From NCBI RefSeq assembly GCF_002591915.1, contig NZ_NIHB01000002.1, positions 504,133-568,132 on the forward strand: DNA of 64,000 nucleotides, written 5' to 3'. Below are positions 4,892 to 63,354 of the stretch, piece by piece. The notes beneath the pieces were generated by a model. That model made no database searches, was not told the DNA's origin, and saw only the letters and a list, made by a program, of their open reading frames with translations. The translations under genes and the position numbers were made by a program. Source of the DNA: Marinicella litoralis (GTDB lineage Bacteria > Pseudomonadota > Gammaproteobacteria > Xanthomonadales > Marinicellaceae). The number at the start of each line of letters is the position of its first letter. Within the stretch, counting starts at the first letter, position 1.

Positions 4892-5061
4892 GAGTTCCCC
4901 CAAAATTGTTAATTAAAGTTAAATATCATTCGCCAAAGATGTTATTTGAACAGTTCCAGATAATCAACAATATATTGATGTAATAATTGAAATTTGCTGC
5001 AAAATGAATGTTTTGAGCAATGATTACATGAATCAGAGGTATTCAAGCGTATTAATTTGAC

Positions 5062-5099
5062 AAAAAAAAGCCAAGCGTTCCTTGTGGGTGCCTGGCTTT
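5062..5099 (-). terminator. Rho-independent terminator of the M16 peptidase gene
   Basis: Read on the minus strand, a stem AAAGCCA / TGGCTTT with a GC-rich loop runs into eight T residues, 20 bp past the peptidase stop codon. Confidence 0.75.
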
Positions 5100-5118
5100 A
5101 ATAGCAAACAGTTATTGA

Positions 5119-7992
5119 TTATTTGAATACTTTTTCTATCTCAATCACTGCAACTTGAGATGGCTTTAAATTCAGTTTGTAGTCTTGAATGATGACATCT
5201 TCAGCCATCAGACTGGCTGGTTTTTCTGAATTATATGTCATCGCAGATGTGGTTTCATTCAACAAACGGTCTTTCATGTCTGCACCGTCTTTGGTGATGA
5301 ACACAAAGTGTATGTTGTCCATTTGTAAATGCTTTTTAATCACCGCATTGACTTGTTCAACCGTCAACGCATCCAAACCATTTTTCACCAAATCTACAAA
5401 TCCTTCCGTGCCATAAAAACCACTGTCCATTTTATAACCCAGTACCCGATCTTGGCCTTTCAACAATAAGCCTGCATATTTTGACAAAAATGCTTTGGTG
5501 GCAGTGAACTGTTCTTCGGTCAAACCGTTGGCAATTAATTTTTCCAACTCATACATCGCTGTTCTGGTGGCAAAATGTGCATCGGTATTGCTGCGCAAGG
5601 GACGCAACCACACTTGGAAAATTTGCTCGCTACGACCCAAATTAGCGGCTGGTTGGGTTCTGTACATGCCACTTGGGAAGTATTCAATGTAGGCATAATC
5701 ACCATAATTCATGCCACGCGCTTCGCGAATTCTTTGGTATAAAAATGAATTAGAGTTGCGGTGTTCACCCAAAAATGAACGAACCAACCACAAGGCCACC
5801 CAATCAGGGTGTGAACGGTTGACTTCGATCGGAAAACCAAATGACACGGCAGTCGGCATGGTCTGTTTTTCTACAATGCTCACATGTCGACCTGATAACT
5901 CAGGTGCTTTTCCAATAGCCACTTTTTCCACACCTTCGGCATTCAATTCATTGGTAATTCGATCCAGCATCATTTGCTTTTGTGCTGACGCCAAGTTTCC
6001 AGTGATGCCTACGTTCAAATTAGCTTGAGTCAATTGTTCATGATAAAAAGTTTTGACGTCATCTAATGTGATGCTGTTTAAATCATCGACATGACCTGCA
6101 TTCAACGACTCATAGGGATGACCAGGATAAAGTTTTTGATACAAAACCTCTTTACCCAATTCTTCATCATTGTTTTGTTTCAAATCAGTTTGCACCGAAT
6201 TGATTTGTTGGGTTTTCAGGCGGTTAAAGTCATCTTCACGAAATCCTGGGTTAAGTAAACTTTCCATCACTAGATCCAGCCACTCACTGGCTTTTTCACG
6301 ATGAACTCGTCCTGACAATGAAATCATTTCCTTATCAACTTGTGAGGCAAAATAGGCCGCCATGGGTAACATGGCTTTCTTGATTTCTTTGATTGATTTG
6401 GTTGCAGAACCCCCTTGTGTGATCATCGATGCGGTCAACGCAGCCAAACCTTTTTTACCTGCAGGGTCTTGCGCGGCCCCGGTGTTGAATAAAAAGTTCA
6501 CGTCAACAATGTCACTGGTATTGGTCATGTCAGTGACTTGGTATTGAGCGATTTTAGGCTCGCTGGCTGTGGCTACCAAAGCCGCCAAATCAAAATCATT
6601 ATTGATGCTGTCGATGCTTTCATCTTGTGCCAATGTAACCATGATCCGGCCATCATCTACCAAATATTTATTGGCAGCCCATTTCACATCTGCTGCAGTG
6701 ATTTGATCCAATTGAGCGTATTGTTGATTGATAAATTCTGGGTCACGATTGTATTGCACCACAGAGGCCAGCATATCAGCAATGGCTTCAGAGTTATCCA
6801 GAGCATTGGCGAAGCCGTAACGTGCTGCCGATTTGATGTCATTCAATTTACTGTTATCAGCCGTTTCTGATCGAGACCTGACAATCGTGTCTAACAAGGC
6901 TTGGTGAACTTCAGGATAATTTTCCTTGTCAGTTAAACGAGCCAATAAATATATCAAACCTGGATCCTTGCTGTCAGGGGTATAAAAATACAAGGCATCA
7001 ACCAATTGTCTGTTGACCACCAAATCTTGATAGATGTCGGAGTTTTGACCAAAGTAAATTTGTCCTAACATGTCAATGGCTGCTTTGTCTTTGACCGTTG
7101 GATCAGCTGATGTACCTCTGAAAACCAAACCCAACATTGGCAAAGTTTCTGATTCCCATTGAATGTGGTGTGATTGGGTTCCCACCGCTGGTGGTTCTAC
7201 TGGAATTTCCACACTGTAGTTGCCACGTTCCCAATCACCAAAATATTTTTCAACCAATGCATGTGATTCTTCTACATCCACATCACCAACAATGATAACG
7301 GCCGCTTTTTCAGGACGGTACCAACGATCGAAAAATTCCAAAGAATAATCCAATTGATTTGGCATGTCTTCAATGTCTTCCAGGAAACCCATGGTGGTGT
7401 GGCGGTAGGTGTGTTGAGTGAAGGCATTTTTACGCACAGTTTCGAACAACTGACTGAAGGGACTGGCACTGTTCTTCAGATACTCGCCTTTAACTGCCAA
7501 CGCTTCTGTCTTGAATTGGGCTTCAGAAAACTTAAGGTTTTTAAAGCGATCTGCTTCCAACATCAACATGCGCTCTAAATCTTCATTGATAAAAGTCACA
7601 TGGTAATTGGTGTAATCATCAGTGGTGTATGCATTTTGGTCAGCCCCCACTTCCTTTAACATCGCACCATATTCTTCCTGACTGTAGTTCTCAGTGCCAC
7701 GAAACATCATGTGTTCAAAGAAATGAGCAAACCCAGATTTACCCGGCTCAACCTCGTTCCTTGAACCCGTTTGAATGGGCATTTGTAATGAAACCACACC
7801 AGGGTAGTCGGTTTTAACCACAATGACTTTCAAACCGTTAGAGAGTTCGCGCATGTCATATGGTTGGGTAAATACCCGTGAATCTGAATGTGCCATCGAC
7901 TTGTTGTCATCATTGGCTGCTGTTTTGACCTGTTTACTTGGTGTACAAGCAAGCAAGGTCAACATTGATATGATTGAAAAAATTGTTCTCAT
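5119..7992 (-). CDS. M16 (pitrilysin/insulinase) family zinc metallopeptidase, lipoprotein
   Basis: 957 residues with a lipoprotein signal (lipobox LLAC, Cys16). Two M16 units follow. The first carries the inverted zinc motif HFFEH (His90, Glu93, His94) in the context GFAHFFEHMMFRGTENY. The second unit (about 480-957) lacks HxxEH and is the non-catalytic partner, as in two-domain M16 enzymes that enclose peptides in a clam-shell chamber. The C-terminal half has the family's RIREARGMNYGDYAY region. It is probably a periplasmic or outer-membrane-anchored oligopeptidase. The gene is monocistronic, divergent from the ubiquinone operon, and ends in its own terminator. Confidence 0.93.
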   Translation of the reverse strand: MRTIFSIISMLTLLACTPSKQVKTAANDDNKSMAHSDSRVFTQPYDMRELSNGLKVIVVKTDYPGVVSLQMPIQTGSRNEVEPGKSGFAHFFEHMMFRGTENYSQEEYGAMLKEVGADQNAYTTDDYTNYHVTFINEDLERMLMLEADRFKNLKFSEAQFKTEALAVKGEYLKNSASPFSQLFETVRKNAFTQHTYRHTTMGFLEDIEDMPNQLDYSLEFFDRWYRPEKAAVIIVGDVDVEESHALVEKYFGDWERGNYSVEIPVEPPAVGTQSHHIQWESETLPMLGLVFRGTSADPTVKDKAAIDMLGQIYFGQNSDIYQDLVVNRQLVDALYFYTPDSKDPGLIYLLARLTDKENYPEVHQALLDTIVRSRSETADNSKLNDIKSAARYGFANALDNSEAIADMLASVVQYNRDPEFINQQYAQLDQITAADVKWAANKYLVDDGRIMVTLAQDESIDSINNDFDLAALVATASEPKIAQYQVTDMTNTSDIVDVNFLFNTGAAQDPAGKKGLAALTASMITQGGSATKSIKEIKKAMLPMAAYFASQVDKEMISLSGRVHREKASEWLDLVMESLLNPGFREDDFNRLKTQQINSVQTDLKQNNDEELGKEVLYQKLYPGHPYESLNAGHVDDLNSITLDDVKTFYHEQLTQANLNVGITGNLASAQKQMMLDRITNELNAEGVEKVAIGKAPELSGRHVSIVEKQTMPTAVSFGFPIEVNRSHPDWVALWLVRSFLGEHRNSNSFLYQRIREARGMNYGDYAYIEYFPSGMYRTQPAANLGRSEQIFQVWLRPLRSNTDAHFATRTAMYELEKLIANGLTEEQFTATKAFLSKYAGLLLKGQDRVLGYKMDSGFYGTEGFVDLVKNGLDALTVEQVNAVIKKHLQMDNIHFVFITKDGADMKDRLLNETTSAMTYNSEKPASLMAEDVIIQDYKLNLKPSQVAVIEIEKVFK

Positions 7993-8226
7993 GTTTCTGT
8001 ACCCATGGTTTTAAATAATAGATGATCCTCTGCATTCAACACGCTCATAAAATGGATGCGGCAAATTCAGAAAGGTTTGGATTTTAACCCAATTCACGCC
8101 TCTTTTGGATAACGTATCGCAAATGAAAAAGTTACTGACCAAGCTTTTATTGTTATTTTGAATGAAACCGATGATTCACAATCGGTTATAATGGCGTTTT
8201 GATAAACATCTCTATAAACACCCATA

Positions 8227-9132
8227 ATGAGCGAATTAAAACTCAACAAAGTTGTTGTCTATGGTTTAGGTGCCATGGGGCGGCCCATAGCAAGAAATTT
8301 AAAAGACCACGGTCTATTGATTGGGGTTAAAAACCGCACAGAAGGCAAATCATTGGCTTTGATGAACGAGTTAGACTTGCCTGAATTTGAAGATGATGAA
8401 GCACTGTTTTCTCAGGCCGACTGTGTTCTGACCTGCGTTTCAGCCGATGACGACCTGAAAGCTGTGGTCGATCATTTTATTGATTATTTGGCACCAGGCT
8501 CTGTGGTACTGGATTGTTCAACCGTCAGTCCAAACACGGCGCGAAGTTTGGCAGATGACTTGGCATCCAAAGGCATCAGCTTTATAGATGCACCCGTATC
8601 AGGCGGGGTTGAAGGTGCTAAAAAAGGCTCATTGTCTATTATGGTCGGCGCAGACCGCGAACAGTACAAACGAGCCTCCGATATTTTCGCCGCCATCGGC
8701 AGTCAAATCACTCACATGGGCCGAGTGGGACAAGGTCAAGCCACCAAAGCCGTCAACCAGGTGATGGTTGCAGGTGTTGCTCAAGCGGTCTGTTCAGCCT
8801 TGGCCATGGCAGAAAATTGTAATTTGGACATGAAAAAAGCCATCGAAGTACTCAGTGCTGGCGCTGCTGGCAATTGGTTTTTAGAAAACCGTGGTCACAC
8901 CATGGTTAACAATGAATTCAATGTCGGGTTTAAATTGTGCTTGTTACACAAAGATTTAAAAATTTGTCAATCAACCATTCAAGAGATGGGCGCCACCATG
9001 CCATTGGTTGAAAGCAGTATTGAAGAATATGCACAATTGATGCAACAAGACCATGGTGATGAAGACATTTCATCATTAATCAGATTAAAACGTGAATTAT
9101 TTCAACCATCAAAAGGTGATACTGATGACTGA
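8227..9132 (+). CDS. Beta-hydroxyacid dehydrogenase family (3-hydroxyisobutyrate dehydrogenase-like)
   Basis: 301 residues with an N-terminal Rossmann motif GLGAMGRPIARNL (about 14-26), the substrate-binding signature FIDAPVSGGVEGAKKG (about 119-134), and the catalytic Lys region GQGQATKAVNQ (Lys near 174). These mark NAD(P)-dependent 3-hydroxyisobutyrate/tartronate-semialdehyde/glyoxylate-succinic-semialdehyde reductases; the substrate cannot be read from sequence. Its 3' end overlaps ubiE by 8 bp, so it is translated with the ubiquinone genes. A TATAAT hexamer lies at 8187-8192, 35 bp before the ATG, without an obvious -35 partner. Confidence 0.85.
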   Translation: MSELKLNKVVVYGLGAMGRPIARNLKDHGLLIGVKNRTEGKSLALMNELDLPEFEDDEALFSQADCVLTCVSADDDLKAVVDHFIDYLAPGSVVLDCSTVSPNTARSLADDLASKGISFIDAPVSGGVEGAKKGSLSIMVGADREQYKRASDIFAAIGSQITHMGRVGQGQATKAVNQVMVAGVAQAVCSALAMAENCNLDMKKAIEVLSAGAAGNWFLENRGHTMVNNEFNVGFKLCLLHKDLKICQSTIQEMGATMPLVESSIEEYAQLMQQDHGDEDISSLIRLKRELFQPSKGDTDD

Positions 9133-51130: not shown

Positions 51131-52378
51131 ATGCAAGATAAAATCCATGACGTCGTCATCTTTGGAGCCACCAGTTTTGTTGGCCAACTCATCTGTGAAT
51201 ACATGGTTCATCAATTCTCAGCAAAGGATTTATCTTGGGCATTGGCTGGGCGCAGTGAATCAAAACTAAAAGCACTCAAAAGTCAATTAGGTGCAGCGGC
51301 CAATGACTTGCCATTGATCCTGGCCGACGCCAATGATTTGAAAGCTTTGAAAAACATGTGCCAACAAGCCAAAGTAGTGGTCTCTACGGTTGGGCCTTAT
51401 GATTTATATGGCGAAACTTTGATTCAAGCTTGTGCTGAAACAGGAACCGACTATTGTGACTTGACTGGGGAAGCACATTGGATCAGTAAAATGCTGGAAA
51501 AATATGAATCGACGGCCAAACAATCTGGAGCCCGCATTGTTCATTGTACCGGCTTTGACTCTATCCCATCAGACTTGGGCGTTCATTTCTTACAAGGTGA
51601 AGCAAAAAGCCGGTTTGGCAGTCATTGTAATCAAGTGAAATTACGCATTAAAAATATGCGCGGTGCCGCCTCAGGAGGCACCATAGCCACCGCTTTGAAT
51701 ATTGCCAAACAAATCAAAATGGATCCTCAGGTTAAAAAGGTCATGGTTAATCCATATGCACTTTGCCCTAAAGACCATGGATTCAAAACCAGACAAAAAG
51801 AAATCAAACTGGAATTTGATGCCACTTTCCAAAAATGGACCGGCCCATTTTTTATGTCCTCCATCAACACCCGCATTGTGCATCGCACCAATGCCTTGAG
51901 TAACCAGGCCTATGGCCAAGATTTTCAATACAATGAAGGAATGATGACGGGTAAAGGCATCAAAGGCAAATTGAGAGCACGCAGCATTTATTGGGGCTTG
52001 GATGCTTTCTTTACAGGAATCAGTATTGCCCCAATCAGGGCCTTATTGACCCGCTTTGTATTGCCTAAACCTGGCGAAGGACCCAGTAAAGAAGACCAAG
52101 CAAAAGGATTCTATGATTTCAGGTTCGTCGGCACCACTGAACAGGACGAACAAATCATCACCAAGGTTTATGGTGACATGGATCCAGGTTACGGCTCTAC
52201 AGCAAAAATCATTAGCCAGGCTGCCGTTTGTATGGCATTTGATGTCGCAGATGACGTTCCAGGTGGTTTCTGGACACCAGCGACTCTGATGGGTGATGTG
52301 CTGATTGATCGTTTAAATCAATATGCCGGGCTTACATTTTCTGTAAGCGAGACCAGCCACACAAAAACCGTTGATTGA
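51131..52378 (+). CDS. Saccharopine-dehydrogenase-like / trans-acting enoyl reductase family protein
   Basis: 415 residues. Rossmann motif VIFGATSFVGQLICEYM, then AGRSESKLKALKSQL and VVSTVGPYDLYGETLIQAC, all typical of the NADP-binding saccharopine-dehydrogenase fold; the closest described members are mycobacterial trans-acting enoyl reductases that work with polyketide synthases on cell-wall lipids. CTGFDSIPSDLG is the conserved second block. It lies about 1.1 kb upstream of the fatty acid cluster on the same strand, separated by a minus-strand gene and the long leader. Involvement with that cluster is only a possibility. Confidence 0.82.
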   Translation: MQDKIHDVVIFGATSFVGQLICEYMVHQFSAKDLSWALAGRSESKLKALKSQLGAAANDLPLILADANDLKALKNMCQQAKVVVSTVGPYDLYGETLIQACAETGTDYCDLTGEAHWISKMLEKYESTAKQSGARIVHCTGFDSIPSDLGVHFLQGEAKSRFGSHCNQVKLRIKNMRGAASGGTIATALNIAKQIKMDPQVKKVMVNPYALCPKDHGFKTRQKEIKLEFDATFQKWTGPFFMSSINTRIVHRTNALSNQAYGQDFQYNEGMMTGKGIKGKLRARSIYWGLDAFFTGISIAPIRALLTRFVLPKPGEGPSKEDQAKGFYDFRFVGTTEQDEQIITKVYGDMDPGYGSTAKIISQAAVCMAFDVADDVPGGFWTPATLMGDVLIDRLNQYAGLTFSVSETSHTKTVD

Positions 52379-53467: not shown

Positions 53468-54403
53468 ATGAGCGAGACAAAATCTAAGTTCAACGCAGTG
53501 GTATTCCCTGGACAAGGCGCACAAAAGTTGGGCATGGCCAAAGACTTTATCGAACAATACCCAGTGGCTGCCAAAGTGTTTGAAACTGCGAACGAAGTGC
53601 TCCCATTTGATATTTATGAAGTGTGTCATGAAAACGCCGACATGTTGAACCAGACCAATTACACCCAGCCTGCTATTTTGGTGGCAGAAATGGCCATGTA
53701 TGAATCTTTAAAAAGTGAATATGGACTCAACCCCAAAGCTTACGCTGGTCATTCTCTTGGAGAGTATTCAGCCTTGACTGCAGCCGGTGTTATTTCTTTT
53801 GAAACCGCACTTCAAATGGTCACCAAGCGCGGTGAACTGATGAACCAAGCCGCATCAGACGGCACCATGACTGCCATTATCATGGATGAAATACCCTATG
53901 CAGAAGTCACTCGCATTGCCAATCAACATCAGGTGGATGTGGCCAATGACAACTCACAACAACAGGTGGTTCTCAGTGGTTTGGAATCAGACATGACCAA
54001 TGCCATTACGGCCTTAACGCATCATTATAATGACGTGGCTTTCAGAGCCGTACCACTGACTGTCAGTTCTGCATTCCATTCAAGGTGGATGCAGTCTGTC
54101 GAACAAGTCTATATGGAATACCTACAACCATTCAAAGCGGATATGAATGTGACGAACTTACCTCAAGTCGCATCCAACTTTTTAGGTGGTTTTTATCCAG
54201 CTGACAAAGAGCAGTTGGTAACCGCTTTGGCCAAACAAATCAGTGGCAGTGTTAAATGGCGCAGCAACATGGCACTTTTACAATCCATGCAAATTCTGGA
54301 ACTTGGGCCCAATCGCCCACTCAGGGGATTCTTCAAAACCATTGGGGTAGACATCACATCAGTGATCAATGTCAAGAGTGCAGCAAAAGCATTCAGCGCA
54401 TGA
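53468..54403 (+). CDS. FabD-like malonyl-CoA:ACP transacylase
   Basis: 311 residues. Family motifs: VVFPGQGAQKLGMAKD, the nucleophile GHSLGEY (Ser96) and the catalytic His204 in SSAFHSRWMQS. Residues after TAAG follow the classical FabD path, though RGELMNQAA keeps the malonate-binding Arg (Arg121 near 120). It loads malonyl groups on ACP for chain extension. First gene of a nine-gene cluster; the next gene starts 46 bp later. Probably not the housekeeping fabD, which normally lies in fabH-fabD-fabG-acpP. Confidence 0.9.
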   Translation: MSETKSKFNAVVFPGQGAQKLGMAKDFIEQYPVAAKVFETANEVLPFDIYEVCHENADMLNQTNYTQPAILVAEMAMYESLKSEYGLNPKAYAGHSLGEYSALTAAGVISFETALQMVTKRGELMNQAASDGTMTAIIMDEIPYAEVTRIANQHQVDVANDNSQQQVVLSGLESDMTNAITALTHHYNDVAFRAVPLTVSSAFHSRWMQSVEQVYMEYLQPFKADMNVTNLPQVASNFLGGFYPADKEQLVTALAKQISGSVKWRSNMALLQSMQILELGPNRPLRGFFKTIGVDITSVINVKSAAKAFSA

Positions 54404-54449
54404 TATCAACATTCGTTTATTTAAGTCATTTTATACAAAGGAGTTCCAA

Positions 54450-55382
54450 GTGAATATATTCAACAAAAACCATTGGGCATTGATACTGGGCGGATCAAGT
54501 GGTTTTGGTTTAGCCAGTGCAAAAAAACTCAGTCAACAAGGGATGAATGTATGTGTGGTTCACCGTGACAGGCGGGGCGCGATGGACAAAATCAACCAAG
54601 AATTTGAAGTCGTTAAATCCAATGGAACTCAGTTCCTCAGCTTCAATGTTGATGCATTAAGCGAAAATGGCATGGACCTAGTATTGACCGAATTGAAGTC
54701 CAAAATGGGGCAATCTGGTCAAGTCCGCGTGCTGTTGCACTCCATTGCATTTGGTAACTTGAAACCCATCGCACCCGTCATCAAAGAACGCAATCAAGGG
54801 GTTGTGGAATTGGCTAAAAAGCTGAACATCGATGAAGCTGCGCTGAACCTTGCCGTGGCTGATTTGCTGGCAGAAAGCACCGATGAATTGTTTCCTTTAG
54901 AATCACCACAATACAGTGACAACCTGATTGAAGACGAAGACATGGCTCGTACCATTTATAGCATGGGAACCAGTTTATTGACTTGGACCCAAAAACTGTC
55001 GATGGCCCAAATGTTTGCTGAGGATGCTCGGGTTTTGGGCTTAACCAGTGAAGGCAATACGGTGGCATGGCGTGGTTATGCAGCCGTTTCAGCGGCCAAA
55101 GTGGCACTGGAATCGGTATCGCGATCAATTGCAGTTGAGTTTGCACCCCAAGGCATTCGATCCAACATCATACAAGCTGGTGTCACAGACACCAAAGCTT
55201 TACAAGCCATACCAGGCAGTGGTCGCATGAAGTCTGTGGCCAAGTTGAAAAATCCATTCAAACGATTAACCACACCTGAGGATGTGGCCGACGTGGTGTC
55301 ACTGTTATCCCGAGACGAGGCCCAGTGGATCAATGGCGCACTGATCAGGGCTGATGGCGGCGAACAAATTGCTTCATTCTAA
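54450..55382 (+). CDS. FabI-like enoyl-ACP reductase with internal insertion
   Basis: 310 residues from GTG 54450, preceded by a strong AAAGGAG; an ATG at 54369 lies inside the previous gene. SDR fold with GGSSGFGLASA and the FabI signature VLLHSIAFGN. The catalytic pair is Tyr210 and Lys217 with six residues between (YAAVSAAK), the FabI-type spacing rather than Tyr-x3-Lys. Compared with the usual 260 residues there are about 45 extra, located around residues 105-185. It reduces the enoyl-ACP intermediate to saturated acyl-ACP. Ends GADGGEQIASF. Confidence 0.85.
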   Translation: MNIFNKNHWALILGGSSGFGLASAKKLSQQGMNVCVVHRDRRGAMDKINQEFEVVKSNGTQFLSFNVDALSENGMDLVLTELKSKMGQSGQVRVLLHSIAFGNLKPIAPVIKERNQGVVELAKKLNIDEAALNLAVADLLAESTDELFPLESPQYSDNLIEDEDMARTIYSMGTSLLTWTQKLSMAQMFAEDARVLGLTSEGNTVAWRGYAAVSAAKVALESVSRSIAVEFAPQGIRSNIIQAGVTDTKALQAIPGSGRMKSVAKLKNPFKRLTTPEDVADVVSLLSRDEAQWINGALIRADGGEQIASF

Positions 55383-55395
55383 GGCGAGATAACTG

Positions 55396-56412
55396 ATGCT
55401 ATATATACATGGTGCAGGTCACTACCACCCATCCAATGTCATTGACAATGCTTTTCTTGAAAGCTTAGACATCGGTACCACCGATGATTGGATTATAGAG
55501 CGAGTGGGTATTCAAAAACGCCATACGGTTATGAATCTTAATGACATCAAAACCACCCACAACCGTTCAGTGGGTGAGTCACAAGTACAAATTAACAGTG
55601 CACAAATGGGTGCCAAAGCGATCACCATGGCCTTAGCACGGGCTGGCATCAGCAAAGATGAAGTTGGCATGGTGTTGGCCGCTTCATGCTCTCCCACCTA
55701 CTCCTTACCGGCCAATGCCTGCGTGATTGCCCAAGCTTGTGAAATCGATGCATTTGCAGTGGACATTTCATCGGCCTGTTCAAGCTTTGCCGCACACATG
55801 CACTTTTTAAACAACATGCAAGCAGCAGCGGTACCCGACTATGTGGTTTGTGTGATCCCAGAAAGTTGGACCACCACCACAGACTACAGCGACCGCCGTA
55901 CGGCCGTGTTGATTGGTGATGGGGCCGCTGCTGTGGTGGTTTCCAAGAAGCACGTTGCAGCCATGAAGATAAAACACACCACCATGACTTCAAACCCTGA
56001 AGCGTGGGAGAAAGTACAAACCAAAACCGGCCATCACTTCTTTCAAGAAGGCTTATCGGTACAAAAATTCGCCATCAAAAAAACCATTGAAACTTTCAAA
56101 TTATTGGCTGAGCAGTCAGCGCTGCCATTGAACCAACATTATTTCATCAGCCACCAAGCCAATTTAACCATGCTGAAATCAGTTTGCAAAAAATTAAAAA
56201 TTGCCGACGAAAAACACCTTTTTAATGTGGACCAATATGGCAACTGCGGCGCAGCCGGCGCACCCAGCGTGTTGTCACAAAACTGGGATCAGTTCAAAGC
56301 AGGCGATCACATTACCTTGGTGGTGGTGGGCGCAGGCCTGACTTGGGGTGGCATGCAAATTTCGGTCGATGAGACCAACCAAACCAGCAGCGGAGCAAAC
56401 CATGCAGCTTAA
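55396..56412 (+). CDS. Beta-ketoacyl-ACP synthase III (FabH-like)
   Basis: 338 residues with the complete KAS III triad: Cys128 in DISSACSSFAAH, His253 in FISHQANLTML and Asn283 in DQYGNCGAAGAPS. The Cys-His-Asn set marks decarboxylating starter condensation. It usually takes acetyl- or longer acyl-CoA and malonyl-ACP. Starter choice cannot be read here, but presence of a dedicated KAS III means the cluster can begin its own chains. It starts 13 bp after the enoyl reductase and overlaps the FabA-like gene by 11 bp. Confidence 0.92.
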   Translation: MLYIHGAGHYHPSNVIDNAFLESLDIGTTDDWIIERVGIQKRHTVMNLNDIKTTHNRSVGESQVQINSAQMGAKAITMALARAGISKDEVGMVLAASCSPTYSLPANACVIAQACEIDAFAVDISSACSSFAAHMHFLNNMQAAAVPDYVVCVIPESWTTTTDYSDRRTAVLIGDGAAAVVVSKKHVAAMKIKHTTMTSNPEAWEKVQTKTGHHFFQEGLSVQKFAIKKTIETFKLLAEQSALPLNQHYFISHQANLTMLKSVCKKLKIADEKHLFNVDQYGNCGAAGAPSVLSQNWDQFKAGDHITLVVVGAGLTWGGMQISVDETNQTSSGANHAA

Positions 56413-56995
56413 GTACCAAGATTTTTTAGCCAGAACTGAATTCAGCAAACAAGAATTACTGGCCTATTCATGGGGAGATTTGGTGGCAGACCCACCGATT
56501 GAAGGCTGTGGTTTATTGCCGTCTCCGCCCATGTTGATGTTTGATCGAATCACCGAAATTTCTCACAAAGGCAAACGAGGTCGCATAGTTGCCGAACAAG
56601 ACATCTCATTGGATGACTGGTTCTTTCAGTGCCACTTTCGCAAAGACCCTGTACAACCAGGTTGTTTGGGCGTTGATGCTGTTTGGCAGTTGATTGGTTT
56701 TTACGCCATCATACGTGGTGGCAAAGGTGCCGGCCGGGCTTTGGGTGCAGGTGAAATTGAGTTTTTTGGCCAAATTCGACCACACAACAAAGTGGTTCGC
56801 TATGAGATTGATATCAAACGCTACTCACACATGGCCGCTCAAGACGCTTCTATAGCCATTGGTTCGGCCAAAGTGTTTGTTGATGATGAGGAAATTTACA
56901 GCATCAAAGACGCCAAAGCAGGTATTTTCAAAGACATTCAATACACCAATTATCCGCATGAAAGTAAACAGGCTGTCGGAGGGACCTTAGGATGA
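56402..56995 (+). CDS. FabA-type 3-hydroxyacyl-ACP dehydratase/isomerase
   Basis: 197 residues from ATG 56402; the open frame begins at 56348 inside the KAS III gene. Alignment with E. coli FabA is clear: LPSPPMLMFDRI, DDWFFQCHFRKDPVQPGCLGVDAVWQLIGFY, GRALGAGEIEFFGQI. Catalytic His78 and Asp92 keep the 14-residue spacing of E. coli His70/Asp84. FabA dehydrates and isomerises to the cis-3 product, so the cluster can make an unsaturated acyl chain. It is about 25 residues longer than E. coli FabA, with a distinct N-terminus and tail. 4-bp overlap with the next gene. Confidence 0.92.
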   Translation: MQLKYQDFLARTEFSKQELLAYSWGDLVADPPIEGCGLLPSPPMLMFDRITEISHKGKRGRIVAEQDISLDDWFFQCHFRKDPVQPGCLGVDAVWQLIGFYAIIRGGKGAGRALGAGEIEFFGQIRPHNKVVRYEIDIKRYSHMAAQDASIAIGSAKVFVDDEEIYSIKDAKAGIFKDIQYTNYPHESKQAVGGTLG

Positions 56996-57456
56996 GTCAA
57001 CAACCACTGAGCTTTACAGAAATTTTGGATTTGGTGCCACAACAAGCCCCATTTCGCTTCATCGATGAAATCATTTCATTGCAGGAAGATGAAATTGTGG
57101 GTAGCTATACTTTCAAAGAAGATGAAAGTTTTTACGCGGGCCATTTTCCAGGAAAACCAGTGACACCAGGTGTTATTTTACTTGAAACCATGGCCCAAAC
57201 TGGGGTGGTGGCGTATGGGCTGTATTTACTGTCCTTGCAAGTCAAACGTGAGGAGTTAGACCAATGGTTGACTTTATTCAGTGATGCCGAAGTTGAATTC
57301 AGCAAACCAGTTTTTCCAGGTGAGAAAGTCACCATAACCGCCAAAAAAGTGTTTTGGCGAAGAATGAAATTAAAAGCCAGTGTCCAAATGCACAATGCCG
57401 CAGGGGAGTTGGTATCCAGTTGTGTTATTTCTGGCATGGGAGTACCGAAACAATGA
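56992..57456 (+). CDS. FabZ-type 3-hydroxyacyl-ACP dehydratase
   Basis: 154 residues of the hotdog fold, with AGHFPGKPVTPGVILLETMAQTG holding the catalytic His51 and Glu65 (14 apart, as His49/Glu63 in FabZ). FabZ dehydrates 3-hydroxyacyl-ACP without isomerisation. A dedicated FabZ-type enzyme beside a FabA-type one suggests alternating cycles that keep or bypass the double bond. It overlaps the neighbours by 4 bp on both sides. Confidence 0.9.
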   Translation: MSQQPLSFTEILDLVPQQAPFRFIDEIISLQEDEIVGSYTFKEDESFYAGHFPGKPVTPGVILLETMAQTGVVAYGLYLLSLQVKREELDQWLTLFSDAEVEFSKPVFPGEKVTITAKKVFWRRMKLKASVQMHNAAGELVSSCVISGMGVPKQ

Positions 57457-58733
57457 ATGAACAAAAAGAAAGGGTCGTAATCACTGGTATGGGTGTCGTC
57501 GCACCCAATGGTCACGGCTTGGCAGCTTATGAACAAGCTTTAAGGAACGGTGTTTCAGGAATCAGACACCAACCGCATTTGGCCGAGCATAAATTTGCGT
57601 GTCAAGTCGGTGGTATTCCACAGGGCATGGAAGAAATCAAACTGCAATACCTGTCAGAAGAATCACTGTTGGCAATGAATGAAGCCATGGTATTTGGTGC
57701 AGTGGCTGCTATTGATTGTTGGCGAGATGCCAAATTACCTGAACCCGGCAGTTGTGGCGATGAAGTGGATTGGGACACCGGCGCGATTATTGGAACAGGC
57801 ATCAGTGGTTTGGATACCATTGGTGAAAAACTGGTTCCTCTGACCGATGCAGGAAAAGTCAGAAGACTGGGATCCACCATGGTTGAACAAGTCATGGCCA
57901 GTTCCAGCAGTGCCAATATCGGCGGCATCTTAGGACTGGGCGGACAAGTCACCACCAATTCCAGTGCCTGTACCACTGGAACAGAAGCCATCGCCAATGG
58001 TTACCACACCATCCAAATGGGTCACAGCAAACGGGTGTTGGTAGGCGGTACAGAAGGTGCGTCTATATACAGCTGGGCAGGGTTTGATGCCATGCGGGTA
58101 CTGTCCAGGTCTTACAACGACAACCCAGAACAAGCTTCACGCCCAATGAGTGCATCGGCTGGTGGTTTTGTTCCTGGTTCAGGTGCTGGCATGCTGATGT
58201 TGGAGTCATTGAGCAGTGCCGAAGCCAGAGGGGCTTACATTTATGCCGAAGTATTGGGTGTCGACGTCAACTGCGGCGGTCAACGCAACGGTGGCAGCAC
58301 CACCTTCCCCAATCCAGTCGGCGTGCAACGTTGTATCCAAACAGCCTTAAAACGTGCCGGCATCAATGGTTCAGAGGTCGACTTAATCAATGGTCATTTA
58401 ACCGCCACCATGGCTGATCCATATGAAGTGAAAAATTGGCAACAAGCACTTAATTGTGAACCACAAGATTTACCGTTGATCAACTCAACCAAATCGATGA
58501 TTGGTCATGCTTTGGGCGCCGCAGGCGGATTAGAGTGTGTGGCTGCGGTGTTACAACTCGACAAAGGGTTTGTTCATGGCTCATTAAATTGTGCAGACAT
58601 ACACCCAGATTTGATGCCATTTGCCAACAGTATTGTACAAAAAACCCAAGCATCTGATGCGCAGGTTTTGGCCAAAGCCAGTTTCGGCTTTGGTGATGTG
58701 AATGCGTGTGTCGTATTCAAAAAATTTAATTAA
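57453..58733 (+). CDS. Beta-ketoacyl-ACP synthase II-like (FabF/FabB family)
   Basis: 426 residues from ATG 57453 (ATGA overlap with the FabZ-like stop). Cys173 in TTNSSACTTGTEAI, His314 in INGHLTATMADPYE and His352 in SMIGHALGAAGG form the Cys-His-His set of elongating KAS. The normal NAHGTST block is changed to NGHLTATMADP, an unusual variant. It condenses malonyl-ACP with growing acyl chains. Divergence suggests non-standard chain length or partner ACP. Precedes the ACP gene by 18 bp. Confidence 0.9.
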   Translation: MNEQKERVVITGMGVVAPNGHGLAAYEQALRNGVSGIRHQPHLAEHKFACQVGGIPQGMEEIKLQYLSEESLLAMNEAMVFGAVAAIDCWRDAKLPEPGSCGDEVDWDTGAIIGTGISGLDTIGEKLVPLTDAGKVRRLGSTMVEQVMASSSSANIGGILGLGGQVTTNSSACTTGTEAIANGYHTIQMGHSKRVLVGGTEGASIYSWAGFDAMRVLSRSYNDNPEQASRPMSASAGGFVPGSGAGMLMLESLSSAEARGAYIYAEVLGVDVNCGGQRNGGSTTFPNPVGVQRCIQTALKRAGINGSEVDLINGHLTATMADPYEVKNWQQALNCEPQDLPLINSTKSMIGHALGAAGGLECVAAVLQLDKGFVHGSLNCADIHPDLMPFANSIVQKTQASDAQVLAKASFGFGDVNACVVFKKFN

Positions 58734-58751
58734 ATTAACCGAGGAATTAAA

Positions 58752-58991
58752 ATGAGTGAAATATTCGAAAAAGTAAAAACAATTGTATCCCCTTACTGTA
58801 AAAACCAAGAAGCCTTGGCAGCTGCCACTGAAGAAACCAGCTTTTTGGATGACTTGTCTGTCAACTCAGCGCGTTTGGTCGACATCGTGATTGATTTCGA
58901 AGATGAGTTTGATATTGAAGTCAGTGACGATGAAGCCGATGCCATCCGCACCATGGGCGACGCAGTCAAAGTCATCAATGCAAAAGTATAA
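58752..58991 (+). CDS. Dedicated acyl carrier protein
   Basis: 79 residues, acidic. The phosphopantetheine site reads DLSVNSARLVDIVIDFEDEF; the modified Ser39 is preceded by Asn instead of the Asp of the common DSL motif, and followed by Ala-Arg-Leu-Val. This divergent pattern separates it from housekeeping AcpP. RBS GAGGAATTAAA is close to the ATG. It should be the carrier for the surrounding enzymes and be activated by the PPTase encoded downstream. Confidence 0.93.
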   Translation: MSEIFEKVKTIVSPYCKNQEALAAATEETSFLDDLSVNSARLVDIVIDFEDEFDIEVSDDEADAIRTMGDAVKVINAKV

Positions 58992-59063
58992 AAGTCATTG
59001 TATGGTTGATTCACTCAGCGTTTTTGTCACATTGATGTATGAAAGCGCGGGTGATTTAACCAG

Positions 59064-59801
59064 ATGAATATTGCCCTTAAACACCGCATACAATTGACCA
59101 TGCAAAAAAGTGTCGCTTTGGTCTGTTTTCCGTTGTTGTTTTCAATGGTCATCATTTGGTTTAAATTTTTCAAGAAATACCAAATCAAAGACATGAAAGC
59201 AGTGCGTCAACAATTCAAACAAATCAAACAAAACAACCCAGATGGCTTATTGGTCTGCCCCAATCACCTGACCTTTATTGATTCAATGATACTTATCTGG
59301 GCTTTTGGCAGTCCATGGTCTTACCTGCGCAGTTTCAGAACCATGTGTTGGAACCTACCCAAAGCCAGCCATGTCAAAGAAAGCAAACTCTATCGCGCTA
59401 TCTGTTACCTGGGCAAATGTATATTGATTGAACCTGATACCAAGGCCTCCAAATTAACCATGGACAAAGCCAGCTATTTATTGAATAAGGGGCAATACGT
59501 TATGGTGTTTCCTGAAGGCACTCGCAGCAACACTGGCCGCATCAATACCGAAAATTTTATTTATGGTGTGGGGAAACTACACATCGACAGTGGCTTAAAA
59601 CAATTACTCTGTGTGTATTTACGTGGAGACGCTCAACAAACAGCCAGCAAAATGCCAAAACAGGCTGAACAATTCACTGTTACATTGAAGCTCATCACCG
59701 CTGAAACCGAACAACATGGTCGCAGAGCGATGAGGGATGTCGCCACTCAGATGATTGATTCATTGGTGGCAATGGAAGCCCAATACCAAGCAGTTCAATA
59801 A
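59064..59801 (+). CDS. PlsC-type acyltransferase
   Basis: 245 residues. An N-terminal hydrophobic helix (about 16-34) may anchor it in the membrane. Motifs of glycerolipid/lysophospholipid acyltransferases: CPNHLTFIDS (His68-x4-Asp73) and VFPEGTRSNTG (Glu151-Gly-Thr-Arg154). It probably transfers the chain made by the cluster from its ACP to a lipid acceptor. It starts 72 bp after the ACP gene and ends 3 bp before the PPTase. Confidence 0.88.
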   Translation: MNIALKHRIQLTMQKSVALVCFPLLFSMVIIWFKFFKKYQIKDMKAVRQQFKQIKQNNPDGLLVCPNHLTFIDSMILIWAFGSPWSYLRSFRTMCWNLPKASHVKESKLYRAICYLGKCILIEPDTKASKLTMDKASYLLNKGQYVMVFPEGTRSNTGRINTENFIYGVGKLHIDSGLKQLLCVYLRGDAQQTASKMPKQAEQFTVTLKLITAETEQHGRRAMRDVATQMIDSLVAMEAQYQAVQ

Positions 59802-59804
59802 GCG

Positions 59805-60476
59805 ATGTTAGGTAATGACGTGGTCGATTTAACCCTTGACTGCGAAAAACATTTAAATCACAGGTTCATCAAACGAATTCTGACTCTCAAGGAACAACAA
59901 CAACTCCAGCTGGCACACGATAAAAACCTGTTTTTATGGAGCCTCTGGTCGATCAAAGAAGCCAGCTATAAAGCCTGTCAAAAACTCAATCACCTGTTGT
60001 TGTTCTCACCCAGTCAATTAGAACTCAACGATTCCAGTTTAAAAAAACTGACTGAACATCATCCACAAACTGCCTTCTTCGGCACCCTCAAACACCAGTC
60101 AACCGAATTGCAACTCAAACTGACATGGTATGCAGAACACAGTGAACACAGCCCAACAATGAAATACACTGCCGTCCACGCCACCGCCTTGCAAGGCACA
60201 GACCCTAAATCATTGGCTGATGTACAGGTGGAAATTTCAAAGATGAATCAACCGTCTAATTATAAAAACCAATCGCTGGCTGTCAGAAAATTAGCAACCA
60301 AGCTGCTTGAATCCAATGCAATCACTGCCAGCATCCAGCGCCCTCCCATAACAATCAAAGATTACAGCAAACCAGGCCCACCCATTTTAGTCAGTGACCA
60401 GCAAACAACCCTGCCCCACGAAATCAGCCTTTCTCATGACAACGATTGGCTCGCTGCAGTGCTGCTCATCAAATGA
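59805..60476 (+). CDS. 4'-phosphopantetheinyl transferase
   Basis: 223 residues. LGNDVVDL at the start (the GxD block) and WSLWSIKEASYKACQK (Trp48, Lys51, Glu52, Lys56) give the two Sfp/AcpT-type motifs with Mg-binding acids. It attaches phosphopantetheine to a carrier protein. A dedicated PPTase at the end of the cluster implies that its ACP is not a substrate of the housekeeping AcpS or needs better activation. Starts 3 bp after the acyltransferase stop. Confidence 0.9.
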   Translation: MLGNDVVDLTLDCEKHLNHRFIKRILTLKEQQQLQLAHDKNLFLWSLWSIKEASYKACQKLNHLLLFSPSQLELNDSSLKKLTEHHPQTAFFGTLKHQSTELQLKLTWYAEHSEHSPTMKYTAVHATALQGTDPKSLADVQVEISKMNQPSNYKNQSLAVRKLATKLLESNAITASIQRPPITIKDYSKPGPPILVSDQQTTLPHEISLSHDNDWLAAVLLIK

Positions 60477-60552: not shown

Positions 60553-61254
60553 TTATGCCTCAGCCAGTTTTTTAACCAAATAATCACTGCTCAAATGCTT
60601 GGTGATATCCATAGGATCACATTGGGTTTTCCCAGATTCAACTGGAATGGGGCCGATGGTTTTGGCCACCTTGATGGCTGCTTGGTTCAACTTCAAATTC
60701 CTTTTGCCGATGCCCAACAGCGCCCCACCCATCGATAGGTGTACCGATTTATCTTCCTCAGAAAACGTGTGCGCAATGTGCTTTATGTATTTAAGAAAAT
60801 AATCATCCTCTGGTGAACATTTCTTTTTTGATTTAGACAGCTCATAAACGAACCCATAGGCACAACGCCTTCTGACTGAATCTTCATTGTTCACCCAAGC
60901 ATCCGCCACTTCATCAATAAATGCCGTCTTCGCCACCGGCGCGCCACAGGCGGAAAATACATGTGCCATCAAGCCAAAATCAATGTCTTCTACCTGTGCC
61001 TCTATTTGTTCTCTGGTAATCAATTTTGGATCATCGATCAAAATTCCAATCACCTTCATGTCGTAATAATCACTGTCCCATAATTGCAGGGCCAGTGCAT
61101 GATCCTTACCTACCTGTTTAGCCAGTTTGCGCAAGACTGTCAATCCAATGCCAAAGCTTTTGTAAGCACAATCAGCCTCCATTTCAATCCAATTGTTGAT
61201 TCCACGTTCGTTTTTTTGTGCCTGTAATAGATTGAACACTTCTGACTTATTCAC
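60553..61254 (-). CDS. AlkD-like DNA alkylation repair/HEAT protein
   Basis: 233 residues, wholly helical. YKSFGIGLTVLRKLAKQVGKDHALALQLWDSDYYDMKVIGILIDD follows the pattern of AlkD (HEAT-like repeats; alkylpurine glycosylase without base flipping). Trp and Asp residues in LWDSDYYDMK and the later AYGFVYELSK segment fit the family. Convergent with the PPTase, so it marks the end of the fatty acid cluster. Enzyme activity not proven by sequence. Confidence 0.78.
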   Translation of the reverse strand: MNKSEVFNLLQAQKNERGINNWIEMEADCAYKSFGIGLTVLRKLAKQVGKDHALALQLWDSDYYDMKVIGILIDDPKLITREQIEAQVEDIDFGLMAHVFSACGAPVAKTAFIDEVADAWVNNEDSVRRRCAYGFVYELSKSKKKCSPEDDYFLKYIKHIAHTFSEEDKSVHLSMGGALLGIGKRNLKLNQAAIKVAKTIGPIPVESGKTQCDPMDITKHLSSDYLVKKLAEA

Positions 61255-61394
61255 TGATTTGCCCCAACAAAAAATAACTTATTAGCATATACCAACTGAG
61301 TTGATATTTCGATTCAATGCACCTAAATCACCTATTTTAGAAACGAAAACAAAAATTCTGACACGCAAATTCACATTCTCAGGTAGGCACTTAC

Positions 61395-61403
61395 TGCTAT
61401 AAT
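61395..61403 (+). promoter_or_regulatory. Putative extended -10 promoter
   Basis: TGCTATAAT, 39 bp before the acyltransferase ATG at 61442; no well-spaced -35. Confidence 0.45.
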
Positions 61404-61441
61404 GTGCGTCGATTCAAATCACAGAAATAACAGGTTTATTA

Positions 61442-62326
61442 ATGAGTAAAAAGGCATTGGAAATACGTGACAAAACCATTTTTGATGGTTTCATTGTGAA
61501 ATATATTCTGAAACTTATTTTTAAAATCTGGTTTAAGTTGACGGGTTGGCAAGCGATTAAAGCAGATCATGAAGGTGCTGGCATCACCATTGCTGCACCG
61601 CATACTTCTAACTGGGATGTGATTTATGCCATGGGTGCAGCCATCCTACTGGACATTAAAATCTATTTTTCAATCAAAGAAAGCTGGTGCCGAATTCCAT
61701 TGATTGGACGCTTGATGATGTGGATGGGAGCCATACCGATTACTCGAAAGGCGGGTGCTCAGGGACAGATTGATAAGATCAGACGCTTTGTCGATAAGCA
61801 TAAAAATCGCCGTGTGTTCTTTCTGTTTACTCCAGAGGGTACACGAGGCAAAGTCAACAAATGGAAAACTGGATTTTATCATTTAGCCCAAGGTTGTGAT
61901 TTACCTATTTTTCTGGCCAAAGTTGACTTCAGGAACAAAGAGTCAGGCGTCTTCCACACCTTCCACTTAACCGGTGATAAAGATGGGGACATTCGCTCAA
62001 TCCAAGAATCCTACAAAAAGGTCCGGGGCAAATACCCAGACCTACAGTATCCTGAATATACCGGTCCTGTACCTGAATTATCTGATCTTGAAGCCAAGGT
62101 ATTGAAAGCAGTCTATTCTGCCAAAGGCGTGGCCACACAATTAGAAATTGCCGCTAAATTAAAAGCGCAAAAATTATCAATAGCCATGTTGGATTTCTTG
62201 GTCGATAAAGGCGTGCTTGAAAAGAAACCAGCTGACAGTGACCAAATCCACTATCAGCTGACCTTTGCTGGTAGAGGTTGTTTATTACATTTGTTCCCCG
62301 CATTGGATGAAAATTCCCTCGTTTGA
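61442..62326 (+). CDS. PlsC-type acyltransferase fused to a C-terminal winged-helix-like domain
   Basis: 294 residues. The N-terminal two thirds are a lysophospholipid-acyltransferase domain: APHTSNWDV (His54-x4-Asp59), TPEGTRGKVNKWKTGFYH (Glu132-Gly-Thr-Arg135), and an entry helix about 20-34. Residues about 212-285 look like a winged helix-turn-helix: ELSDLEAKVLKAVYSA, ATQLEIAAKLKAQ, AMLDFLVDKGVLEKK and a beta-hairpin with YQLTFAGRG. This fusion is not the usual PlsC architecture. Preceded by TGCTATAAT; stand-alone gene. Confidence 0.85.
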   Translation: MSKKALEIRDKTIFDGFIVKYILKLIFKIWFKLTGWQAIKADHEGAGITIAAPHTSNWDVIYAMGAAILLDIKIYFSIKESWCRIPLIGRLMMWMGAIPITRKAGAQGQIDKIRRFVDKHKNRRVFFLFTPEGTRGKVNKWKTGFYHLAQGCDLPIFLAKVDFRNKESGVFHTFHLTGDKDGDIRSIQESYKKVRGKYPDLQYPEYTGPVPELSDLEAKVLKAVYSAKGVATQLEIAAKLKAQKLSIAMLDFLVDKGVLEKKPADSDQIHYQLTFAGRGCLLHLFPALDENSLV

Positions 62327-62541: not shown

Positions 62542-63354
62542 ATGAGTAATGAAAACAGAGTTGAAGTAAAAATTAAGCACAGCATTGCTTATGTCAGTTT
62601 AGCCAGGCCCGAAAAAATGAATGCTTTGGACATGGCGATGTTTCAGTCAATAGTCAGTACCATCAAAGCCTTAAGAAAAAACCGAGGCATTCGAGCGGTC
62701 ATTGTCTCTGGCCAAGGGGACAATTTTTGCTCAGGCCTGGATGTGAAGTCAATGATGATATCTCCCACTGGTCCGTTAAAATTACTGAAGAAAATAAATC
62801 CCTGGAGTGCCAATATGGCACAAAGGGTTTCTGCTGATTGGCAAAAGGTCAGTGCACCGGTTATTATGGCGATCCATGGCCGATGTTGGGGTGGTGGTTT
62901 GCACATTGCTTTGGGTGGTGATATACGCATTGCTACACCTGATGCTTCATTGTCGATCATGGAGGGTCGTTGGGGCATGATTCCTGATATGGGCGGCCTA
63001 CTGGCTTTGCGCACCCATTGTCGCATTGATGTGGCCAAAGAATTGACCATGACTGCTAAAATAATCACTGGCGAAGAAGCTCAAAAAGCCGGCTTAGTCA
63101 CTCACGTCACTGAAAATCCCATGAAAATGGCACAAGCCCTGGCAGAAGAAATCTGTCAACAATCACCCGATTCAGTGGCTGCAGTGAAAAAACTTTACAA
63201 CAAAAGTTGGATTGGCGGGAGAGGTACTGCTTTGATGCGAGAAACACTGTATCAATTGCGTGTCATTTTGGGTAAAAACAGCAAAATCAAAATCCACAAC
63301 CAAACCCATGATGAAGATAAACAGAGACATTTTTTGCCACGAAAAAAGTGGTGA
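62542..63354 (+). CDS. Crotonase/enoyl-CoA hydratase family protein
   Basis: 270 residues. The oxyanion-hole segments NFCSGLDVKSM (Gly65) and RCWGGGLHIALGGD are present. Of the two catalytic glutamates of enoyl-CoA hydratase, the first position is His121 (GGGLHIAL instead of GGxCELA), and the second is retained as Glu141 in SIMEGRWGMIPDMGG. One-Glu members include isomerases and other crotonases, so water addition is doubtful. The chain continues into a basic C-terminus. No closely coupled partner. Confidence 0.87.
   Translation: MSNENRVEVKIKHSIAYVSLARPEKMNALDMAMFQSIVSTIKALRKNRGIRAVIVSGQGDNFCSGLDVKSMMISPTGPLKLLKKINPWSANMAQRVSADWQKVSAPVIMAIHGRCWGGGLHIALGGDIRIATPDASLSIMEGRWGMIPDMGGLLALRTHCRIDVAKELTMTAKIITGEEAQKAGLVTHVTENPMKMAQALAEEICQQSPDSVAAVKKLYNKSWIGGRGTALMRETLYQLRVILGKNSKIKIHNQTHDEDKQRHFLPRKKW

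Follow-up and report, generated by a model that had tools for sequence, protein, structure and literature searches.

The window analyzed here, 64,000 nucleotides of the Marinicella litoralis genome (contig NZ_NIHB01000002.1), carries at positions 53468-60476 a run of genes for type II fatty acid synthesis (FAS II), and the question it raises is whether these are the housekeeping genes of the organism or a second synthase with a product of its own. The original prediction favored a dedicated, self-contained system with a private acyl carrier protein (ACP), 4'-phosphopantetheinyl transferase (PPTase) and acyltransferase.

Gene content of the cluster and its relation to the housekeeping genes

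All nine predicted reading frames could be confirmed on the forward strand, and Pfam and NCBIfam agree with the enzyme classes proposed for them. The first gene (53468..54403) encodes a FabD-type malonyl-CoA:ACP transacylase (PF00698; 252.2 bits against TIGR00128, cut-off 260.9) in which GHSLGE, the Arg of KRGELM and the His of SAFHS are all present, and which is 36% identical to E. coli FabD and 35% to the organism's own housekeeping FabD. It is followed by an enoyl-ACP reductase (ENR)-like SDR of the FabI/FabL type (54450..55382; motifs HSIAF and Y-x6-K), with a GTG start at 54450 behind AGGAG, and by a FabH-type KAS III (55396..56412; PF08541, PF08545) that keeps the catalytic C/H/N in the motifs ACSSF, HQAN and GNCGAAG. 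Two dehydratases come next, a FabA-type 3-hydroxyacyl-ACP dehydratase/isomerase (56402..56995) and a FabZ-type enzyme (56992..57456; PF07977; GHFPG, LLE), the latter 33% identical to the other FabZ of the genome. The elongating KAS (57453..58733) belongs to a distinct clade and has C173, H315 and H352, the gate FGFGDVN, the motif HLTAT and a loop 2 reading NCGGQRNGGS. The ACP (58752..58991), in which NSAR replaces DSLD at the phosphopantetheine serine, precedes a PlsC-type acyltransferase (59064..59801; NHLTFID, FPEGTRS) and a PPTase (59805..60476; PF01648; NDVVDL, WSIKEASYK). FabA alone passes the cut-off of a curated NCBIfam model (NF003509), and the eight other proteins, which score below theirs, are thus divergent members of their families.

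The intergenic spacings are, in order, 46, 13, -11, -4, -4, 18, 72 and 3 bp; only three overlaps (11, 4 and 4 bp) occur, within the 4-11 bp reported earlier, for which "many" was a generous word. A scan for promoters and terminators returned fewer sites than in its shuffled controls. The FAS II enzymes (MAT, KAS III, KAS, dehydratase, ENR and ACP) are all dissociated, with one catalytic domain in each cluster protein as judged by Pfam, and their catalytic residues are present, the ENR function being putative. As predicted, fabG is the sole gene of the cycle absent from the cluster; self-containment accordingly holds for the ACP, PPTase and acyltransferase and not for the ketoreductase, which in Marinicella must come from outside.

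The prediction of a non-housekeeping synthase hinged on a standard fab cluster elsewhere in the genome, and on other contigs we find plsX-fabH-fabD-fabG-acpP-fabF, another fabZ and another PPTase gene. The genome has three PF07977 matches, namely the cluster FabA, which is its only FabA, the cluster FabZ and the other fabZ, and two PF01648 matches, one of which is the cluster PPTase. The cluster and the housekeeping synthase share their chemistry, enzyme classes and dissociated enzymes; the cluster differs in being a second copy with another gene order and without fabG, in adding FabA, ENR, PlsC and PPTase, in sequence, being 29-35% identical to those five counterparts of the same genome with which it was compared, and in its NSAR ACP and GFGD KAS. 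A housekeeping copy would be a core gene set present in relatives, but the cluster KAS is found in 8 of the 18 Marinicella genomes and has no match in the other 10. Among eight Marinicella genomes tested, the five carriers have two PPTase and three to four FabA/FabZ matches, and the three non-carriers have one of each. We therefore give very little credence to the cluster being the plain housekeeping copy or a duplicate in decay: its gene content does overlap that of FAS II, but this reading is refuted by the separate fab set, and the reading frames are intact and the catalytic residues retained.

Signatures of the KAS and ACP and spread of the gene set

The canonical gate of elongating KAS enzymes consists of GFGG in loop 1 and Asp265, where loop 2 begins (PMC7138838). 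In the clade of the cluster KAS, aligned over 79 loci and the window (80 rows; locus L080, with a stop inside its tblastn range, was dropped), GFGG is GFGD in 80/80 rows, loop 2 is longer by four residues in 80/80 and contains an Arg in 79/80, while the catalytic C-H-H is kept. The residue aligned with Asp265 is Asp in 25 rows, including all 20 of the Elusimicrobia type, and another residue in the remaining 55, being Asn in the window KAS. One might guess that Asp415 of loop 1 contacts Arg278 of loop 2. The cluster KAS is 33% identical to FabB and 34% to FabF and forms its own branch (SH-aLRT 100); a Foldseek search with it returned FabB and FabF matches mixed. Similarly, the DSL site of the ACP reads NSAR in 57 of the 59 ACPs counted, which come from loci other than the 20 of the Elusimicrobia type.

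Comparison of neighborhoods across genomes, a check suggested with the original prediction, reveals that the set recurs in many phyla together with these signatures, which could not be seen from the letters of the window. The gene order is the same in 6/6 Marinicella-type loci, and the set lies in several different flanks within the genus. Outside the genus it turns up in about a dozen phyla, where KAS identity is 46-68%. Of the 54 loci that belong neither to Marinicella nor to the Elusimicrobia-type group, 52 keep the order of the genes found, an agreement that, with that in Marinicella, goes beyond chance, and 31 have all genes from ENR to plsC, many of the others being cut by contig ends; in one locus (L105) fabH and plsC are on the opposite strand. 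The KAS tree, from which 22 further loci, mostly near-duplicates, were omitted, rejects a single clade for Pseudomonadota and likewise for Myxococcota, pointing to horizontal spread of the cluster. In Mantel tests on loci L070-L128 and the window, eight cluster genes each co-vary with the KAS, with none of 200 permutations as high, the distances of PlsC and PPTase following it least (rho 0.45 and 0.39). The gene sets used for these tests and for the motif counts exclude matches that cover less than 55% of the gene, lie more than 7 kb from the KAS or on the other strand, or contain a stop.

The copies also vary in content. An own SDR with Y-x3-K accompanies the set in 14 loci outside the Elusimicrobia-type group, PlsC is fused to the PPTase in the Elusimicrobia-type copies, and an MMPL transporter lies beside the set in one locus (L127). 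Clustering of flanking ORFs (80 loci; coverage 60%, E 1e-15), with Pfam searches on chosen neighbors, identified as recurring genes a fused acyl-CoA carboxylase, which adjoins the cluster in six loci, and genes common to near relatives; beyond these, no head-group, glycosyltransferase or export gene was seen to recur in the flanks so searched.

Proposed function of the cluster

On this evidence, we consider it more likely than not that the cluster encodes an orthogonal second FAS II, in which a FabA-dependent, probably unsaturated chain would be built on the private ACP and put on a lipid by PlsC. Such a synthase would be mobile and separate from its housekeeping counterpart. The cluster PPTase would activate the private ACP at its NSAR site, FabD would load malonate onto it, FabH would prime from acyl-CoA and the re-gated KAS would elongate. 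Ketoreduction would be borrowed, probably from the housekeeping FabG, while copies elsewhere may supply it by their own SDR. FabZ and FabA would both dehydrate, and FabA may in addition isomerise trans-2 to cis-3, which would let a double bond be retained, the cluster KAS standing in for FabB. The FabL-like ENR would saturate the remaining cycles, and PlsC would finally take the chain off the private ACP and attach it to the lipid.

The cluster FabA has 46% identity to E. coli FabA, the motifs CHF..DPV and VDAVWQ that hold the active-site His and Asp, and a score of 209.6 bits on the bifunctional equivalog NF003509 (cut-off 124), though it scores 171.7 on TIGR01749, under the cut-off of 238.15. 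The presence of FabA does not by itself prove unsaturation. The FabA-FabB anaerobic unsaturated pathway likewise pairs FabA with a KAS, whereas here the KAS lies in a separate clade, not being FabB-type, and the ACP is private, which sets the cluster apart from the canonical pathway. It is also conceivable, though unlikely, that a second FAS II is specialised by starter or chain length, making a branched or very long saturated chain with FabA as a dehydratase only. Its own KAS III and ENR-like SDR would suit such a synthase, the rebuilt gate could alter chain length, and the desaturases found in 6/6 Marinicella genomes, with or without the cluster, make FabA-type unsaturation unnecessary there; but with FabZ already in place an added FabA-type dehydratase needs a reason, and the FabA, besides exceeding the bifunctional cut-off, is present in 47 of the 54 loci left once the Marinicella and Elusimicrobia-type copies are set aside. 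AcpXL systems make very long saturated chains for lipid A and comprise an AcpXL-type ACP, two KAS and LpxXL; against this content the window cluster has one KAS and an acyltransferase matching PF01553.

The ENR-like protein is nearest to FabL among NCBIfam models (111 bits, cut-off 328), and a profile search of the PDB places FabL (PDB identifier 3oic) first with 105.9 bits, the next match scoring 87.5. In a single-sequence search of the PDB, 3oic is fifth and other SDRs lead; they also lead in a Foldseek search with the AlphaFold model (pLDDT 92.3), which did not tell ENR from other SDRs, and the protein is closer to E. coli FabG (31% identity) than to FabI (26%). The ENR assignment is thus putative, which leaves some room for a polyene or polyketide-like pathway akin to that of aryl polyenes (APE), in which an incompletely reduced chain would end on an outer-membrane lipid; we regard this as quite improbable. 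According to the part of PMC8253772 available, with its Table 1, APE clusters share with ours the KAS, dehydratases, ACP and lysophospholipid acyltransferase on one strand and have an RND transporter, which the MMPL gene of L127 recalls in a single locus. The genes listed for them include a KAS and a CLF-type KAS, acyl-ACP synthetase and thioesterase, and no ENR, whereas our cluster has an ENR-type SDR besides the separate Y-x3-K SDRs of other copies, has one KAS, and lacks acyl-ACP synthetase, aryl ligase, thioesterase and Lol-type genes, including a carrier. On these features the cluster is not counted among the aryl polyene clusters. The cluster KAS scores 199.7 bits on PRK09116 and 124.8 on PRK09185 (cut-offs 470 and 407), models which we take to cover APE synthases.

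As regards the acceptor, the general PF01553 domain is the sole Pfam match of the cluster PlsC, which would also suit an N- or O-acyltransferase acting on an aminolipid, glycolipid or sphingolipid-like molecule, and sphingolipid-specialised ACPs are known (excerpt of PMC9386255). Such a non-phospholipid acceptor, compatible with the proposed pathway except at its last step, appears to us unlikely, given that no head-group gene recurs when the ORFs flanking the 80 loci are clustered.

Comparison with known lipid synthases and implications

Pfa-type secondary lipid synthases, as described in the part of Shulse and Allen 2011 (PMC3098273) available, also act besides FAS II, often with an adjacent PPTase and a horizontal scatter over phyla resembling that of the cluster; those are type I multidomain proteins, whereas the cluster enzymes are single-domain type II proteins, and the cluster is no Pfa system. 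In the AcpXL/AcpR systems, according to an excerpt of PMC9386255, a private ACP likewise directs acyl chains to one lipid; here the ACP, the PPTase and almost the entire elongation cycle lie in one cluster. We tentatively suggest, with less than even confidence, that the cluster encodes a type II "secondary lipid" synthase not described before, which has spread horizontally over about a dozen phyla, is kept orthogonal by its non-DSL ACP, own PPTase and rebuilt-gate KAS, and makes one specific chain, and hence a lipid not yet assigned. Among the matches listed in open-licence PMC literature, none describes this gene set.

If this holds, type I secondary lipid synthases would have in the cluster a type II equivalent, a near-complete and transferable acyl-chain factory beside the essential one. 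It would bear on how one cell separates two FAS II pathways, on the evolution of KAS gating, given that a GFGG loop considered typical of elongating synthases in general is altered here, and on the unassigned lipids of uncultured phyla. All nine genes are present in M. gelatinilytica S6413 and M. pacifica CGMCC 1.12181, and with these carriers the question is testable in culture.

A second fatty acid synthase gene set

The same-strand set of nine genes put forward in the original prediction is present at 53468-60476 of the window, where fabD, the FabI/FabL-like SDR presumed to be an enoyl-ACP reductase (ENR), fabH, fabA, fabZ, a fabF-like ketoacyl-ACP synthase (KAS) gene, acp, plsC and a 4'-phosphopantetheinyl transferase (PPTase) gene all lie on the + strand, with intergenic spacings in gene order of 46, 13, -11, -4, -4, 18, 72 and 3 bp. 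All nine reading frames are unbroken, and the expected catalytic motifs are retained in seven products; these we take to be GHSLGE with Arg and His in FabD, Cys-His-Asn in KAS III, His with Asp or Glu in FabA and FabZ, Cys173-His315-His352 in the KAS, HX4D and FPEG in PlsC, and ND and KEA in the PPTase.

The view that these are not the housekeeping genes is borne out by a search of the same genome (3.35 Mb, 99.66% complete) for a second fab set. PF02801 identifies two KAS, the cluster copy and the fabF of a separate fab cluster on another contig, in which fabH, fabD, acp and fabF were matched by BLAST and which we read as plsX-fabH-fabD-fabG-acpP-fabF, plsX and fabG being named by reading alone. 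The genome also has a further fabZ, whose neighbours are presumably lpxD and lpxA, and a further PPTase on contig C1. Five cluster proteins compared with their own housekeeping counterparts share 29-35% identity. At least one further KAS occurs in 4/4 carrier genomes tested, and among eight genomes of the genus the five carriers have two PPTase and three to four FabA/FabZ matches, the three non-carriers one of each. The cluster is very probably a dedicated second synthase. We consider the gene set a variant of the known type II kind, of which no description was found in the open-licence literature (subscription literature lay outside the search).

Such an orthogonal type II synthase would build one extra acyl chain, which PlsC would transfer to a lipid; that the acceptor is a glycerolipid we judge about evenly balanced. 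The cluster copy is the only FabA in the genome, and PF02801 revealed no third KAS there that could be FabB. Dependence of unsaturation on this FabA is a reading with an even chance of being right. Desaturases (PF00487) are present in 6/6 Marinicella genomes tested, two of these cluster-free, so the cluster is dispensable for unsaturation as such. PF00487 gave five matches in the window's genome, four above the cut-off; two desaturase matches lie about 6 kb apart on contig C12 (712346-719518).

Mobility within Marinicella and spread across phyla

The cluster KAS (at least 80% identity) is found in 8 of 18 genus genomes, named matches being M. gelatinilytica and M. pacifica; the remaining ten include incomplete assemblies, with completeness as low as 81%. 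Apart from the window's genome there are seven carriers; all nine genes are present in unchanged order in six, and the seventh is ended by a contig edge. Judged by neighbouring proteins, the flanks of L054, L058 and L060 are alike on both sides and L057 shares one side; in L055, L056, L059 and the window, the flanking genes are different in each case. The window genes at 51131-52378 (saccharopine-dehydrogenase-like) and 62542-63354 (enoyl-CoA hydratase) are 10.2 kb apart, and their counterparts lie 618 bp apart in a cluster-free genome (G016) and 2.1 kb apart in another genome of the genus (G003). Besides the cluster, the extra block contains a small ORF and, downstream at 60553-62326, genes for a DNA-alkylation-type protein and for a second protein of PlsC type, and therefore its ends are not those of the cluster. 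The cluster is a movable unit within the genus.

With the E cut-off set to 1e-70, 3/369 genomes of the class and 9/398 of the order have the KAS, own genome counted. A wider scan, in which a single genome represented each species (84,980), using two KAS peptide patterns placed outside the gate and HLT-T motifs, gave 85 relatives, a lower bound since the patterns were exact, of which 80 were kept. Record titles and origins assign them to Spirochaetota, Pseudomonadota, Bdellovibrionota, Myxococcota, Thermodesulfobacteriota, Gemmatimonadota, Acidobacteriota, Omnitrophota, KSB1, Bipolaricaulota, Elusimicrobiota and Bacteroidota (one), though individual placements may be wrong as nearly all are metagenome bins. 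The proposed comparison of neighbourhoods found that the gene order recurs around the KAS in Marinicella and in other phyla: the order of detected genes is kept in 6/6 Marinicella-type, 20/20 Elusimicrobia-type and 52/54 other loci, the exceptions being L105 (fabH and plsC on the opposite strand) and L121 (fabH placed behind). Among the 34 other loci uncut near the KAS, the full set of eight genes from ENR to PPTase is present in 23, and seven or more of the eight in 29; FabD is upstream in 11/54. The window's ACP and PPTase as queries found no match in the Elusimicrobia-type loci. A Francisellaceae bin (L068, identical to L091; 29% GC) has fabD-fabH-fabA-fabZ-fabF-acp-plsC; alongside these genes, neither ENR nor PPTase gave a match.

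For every one of the eight other cluster genes, distances track those of the KAS (Spearman 0.39-0.67, n 18-59; permutations as high, 0/200), in statistics that ignore shared ancestry of hosts. In a KAS tree made by a quick method (58 family rows), the family forms one branch separate from FabB and FabF (SH-aLRT 100, length 1.88). AU tests, on groups that follow record taxonomy but run after the tree had been inspected, reject a single clade for Pseudomonadota (p 4e-7, L109 excluded) and Myxococcota (1.5e-4), and weakly for Spirochaetota (0.033).

Signatures of the reductase, ACP and KAS

The ENR carries FabI-type HSI-A-F and Y-x6-K motifs in 61/63 family rows, and its top PDB profile match is FabL. 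Against this assignment, its identity to FabG exceeds that to FabI, and FabL is only fifth in a single-sequence PDB search; Foldseek was not decisive. A separate SDR with Y-x3-K is present in 14 loci outside the Elusimicrobia-type group, in 12 of them between fabA and fabZ, and its presence beside the ENR argues for a division of steps between the two reductases.

The ACP phosphopantetheine site reads NSAR in 57/59 (NSAH in L146, SSSR in L096), whereas E. coli AcpP and the genome's own housekeeping AcpP have DSLD. Non-DSL ACPs can resist common PPTases (PMC12391972), which would explain the private PPTase; against that explanation, other ACPs of specialised function are described as charged by an AcpS or labelled when in E. 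coli (PMC9386255).

In the KAS, the gate loop is GFGDVN and HLT-T replaces HGTST in 80/80 family rows; elongating synthases are described as having a highly conserved GFGG loop and a conserved Asp265 (PMC7138838). The residue aligned with Asp265 is Asp in 25/80, including all 20 Elusimicrobia-type rows, and Asn in the window. Loop 2 has 16 residues in all 80 rows against 12 in four reference KAS (+4), with an Arg in 79/80, and our guess is that the new gate Asp pairs with this Arg. The AlphaFold model has a pLDDT of 92.8 overall and about 72-75 in loop 2. The best PDB profile matches are synthases of the FabB and FabF type, for which the Foldseek list gives 28-33% identity, so no solved member of the clade was seen among them.

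Partner genes and fusions

A protein of 1821-2010 aa lies downstream of the set in six loci, recorded as Deltaproteobacteria (L099, L107, L108, L117, L126) and Proteobacteria (L109). Pfam identifies biotin carboxylase, biotinyl and carboxyltransferase domains in two of the six, the other four joining L109 by BLAST clustering, as in a single-chain acyl-CoA carboxylase (L109, 12974-18580; L108, 12475-17940). The Elusimicrobia-type clusters encode a 469 aa PlsC-PPTase fusion, at 10939-12348 in L133 and in 14 further ORFs like it; Pfam shows both domains in the one of these 15 to which it was applied. The carboxylase neighbour and the fusion link the supply of malonyl units, the activation of the ACP and the transfer of the acyl chain as steps of a single pathway.

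At the ACP position of Elusimicrobia-type loci is a 300-residue protein (L133, 10035-10937; L141, 11342-12241) that has no Pfam match, weakly matches the cluster ACP profile and may be an enlarged carrier protein. L141 also encodes a single 376-residue protein with two FabA-domain stretches (7646-8776). In L127, an MMPL-family transporter (4546-6942) adjoins the gene set SDR-fabZ-fabF-acp-plsC-ppt, and a 307-residue protein follows.
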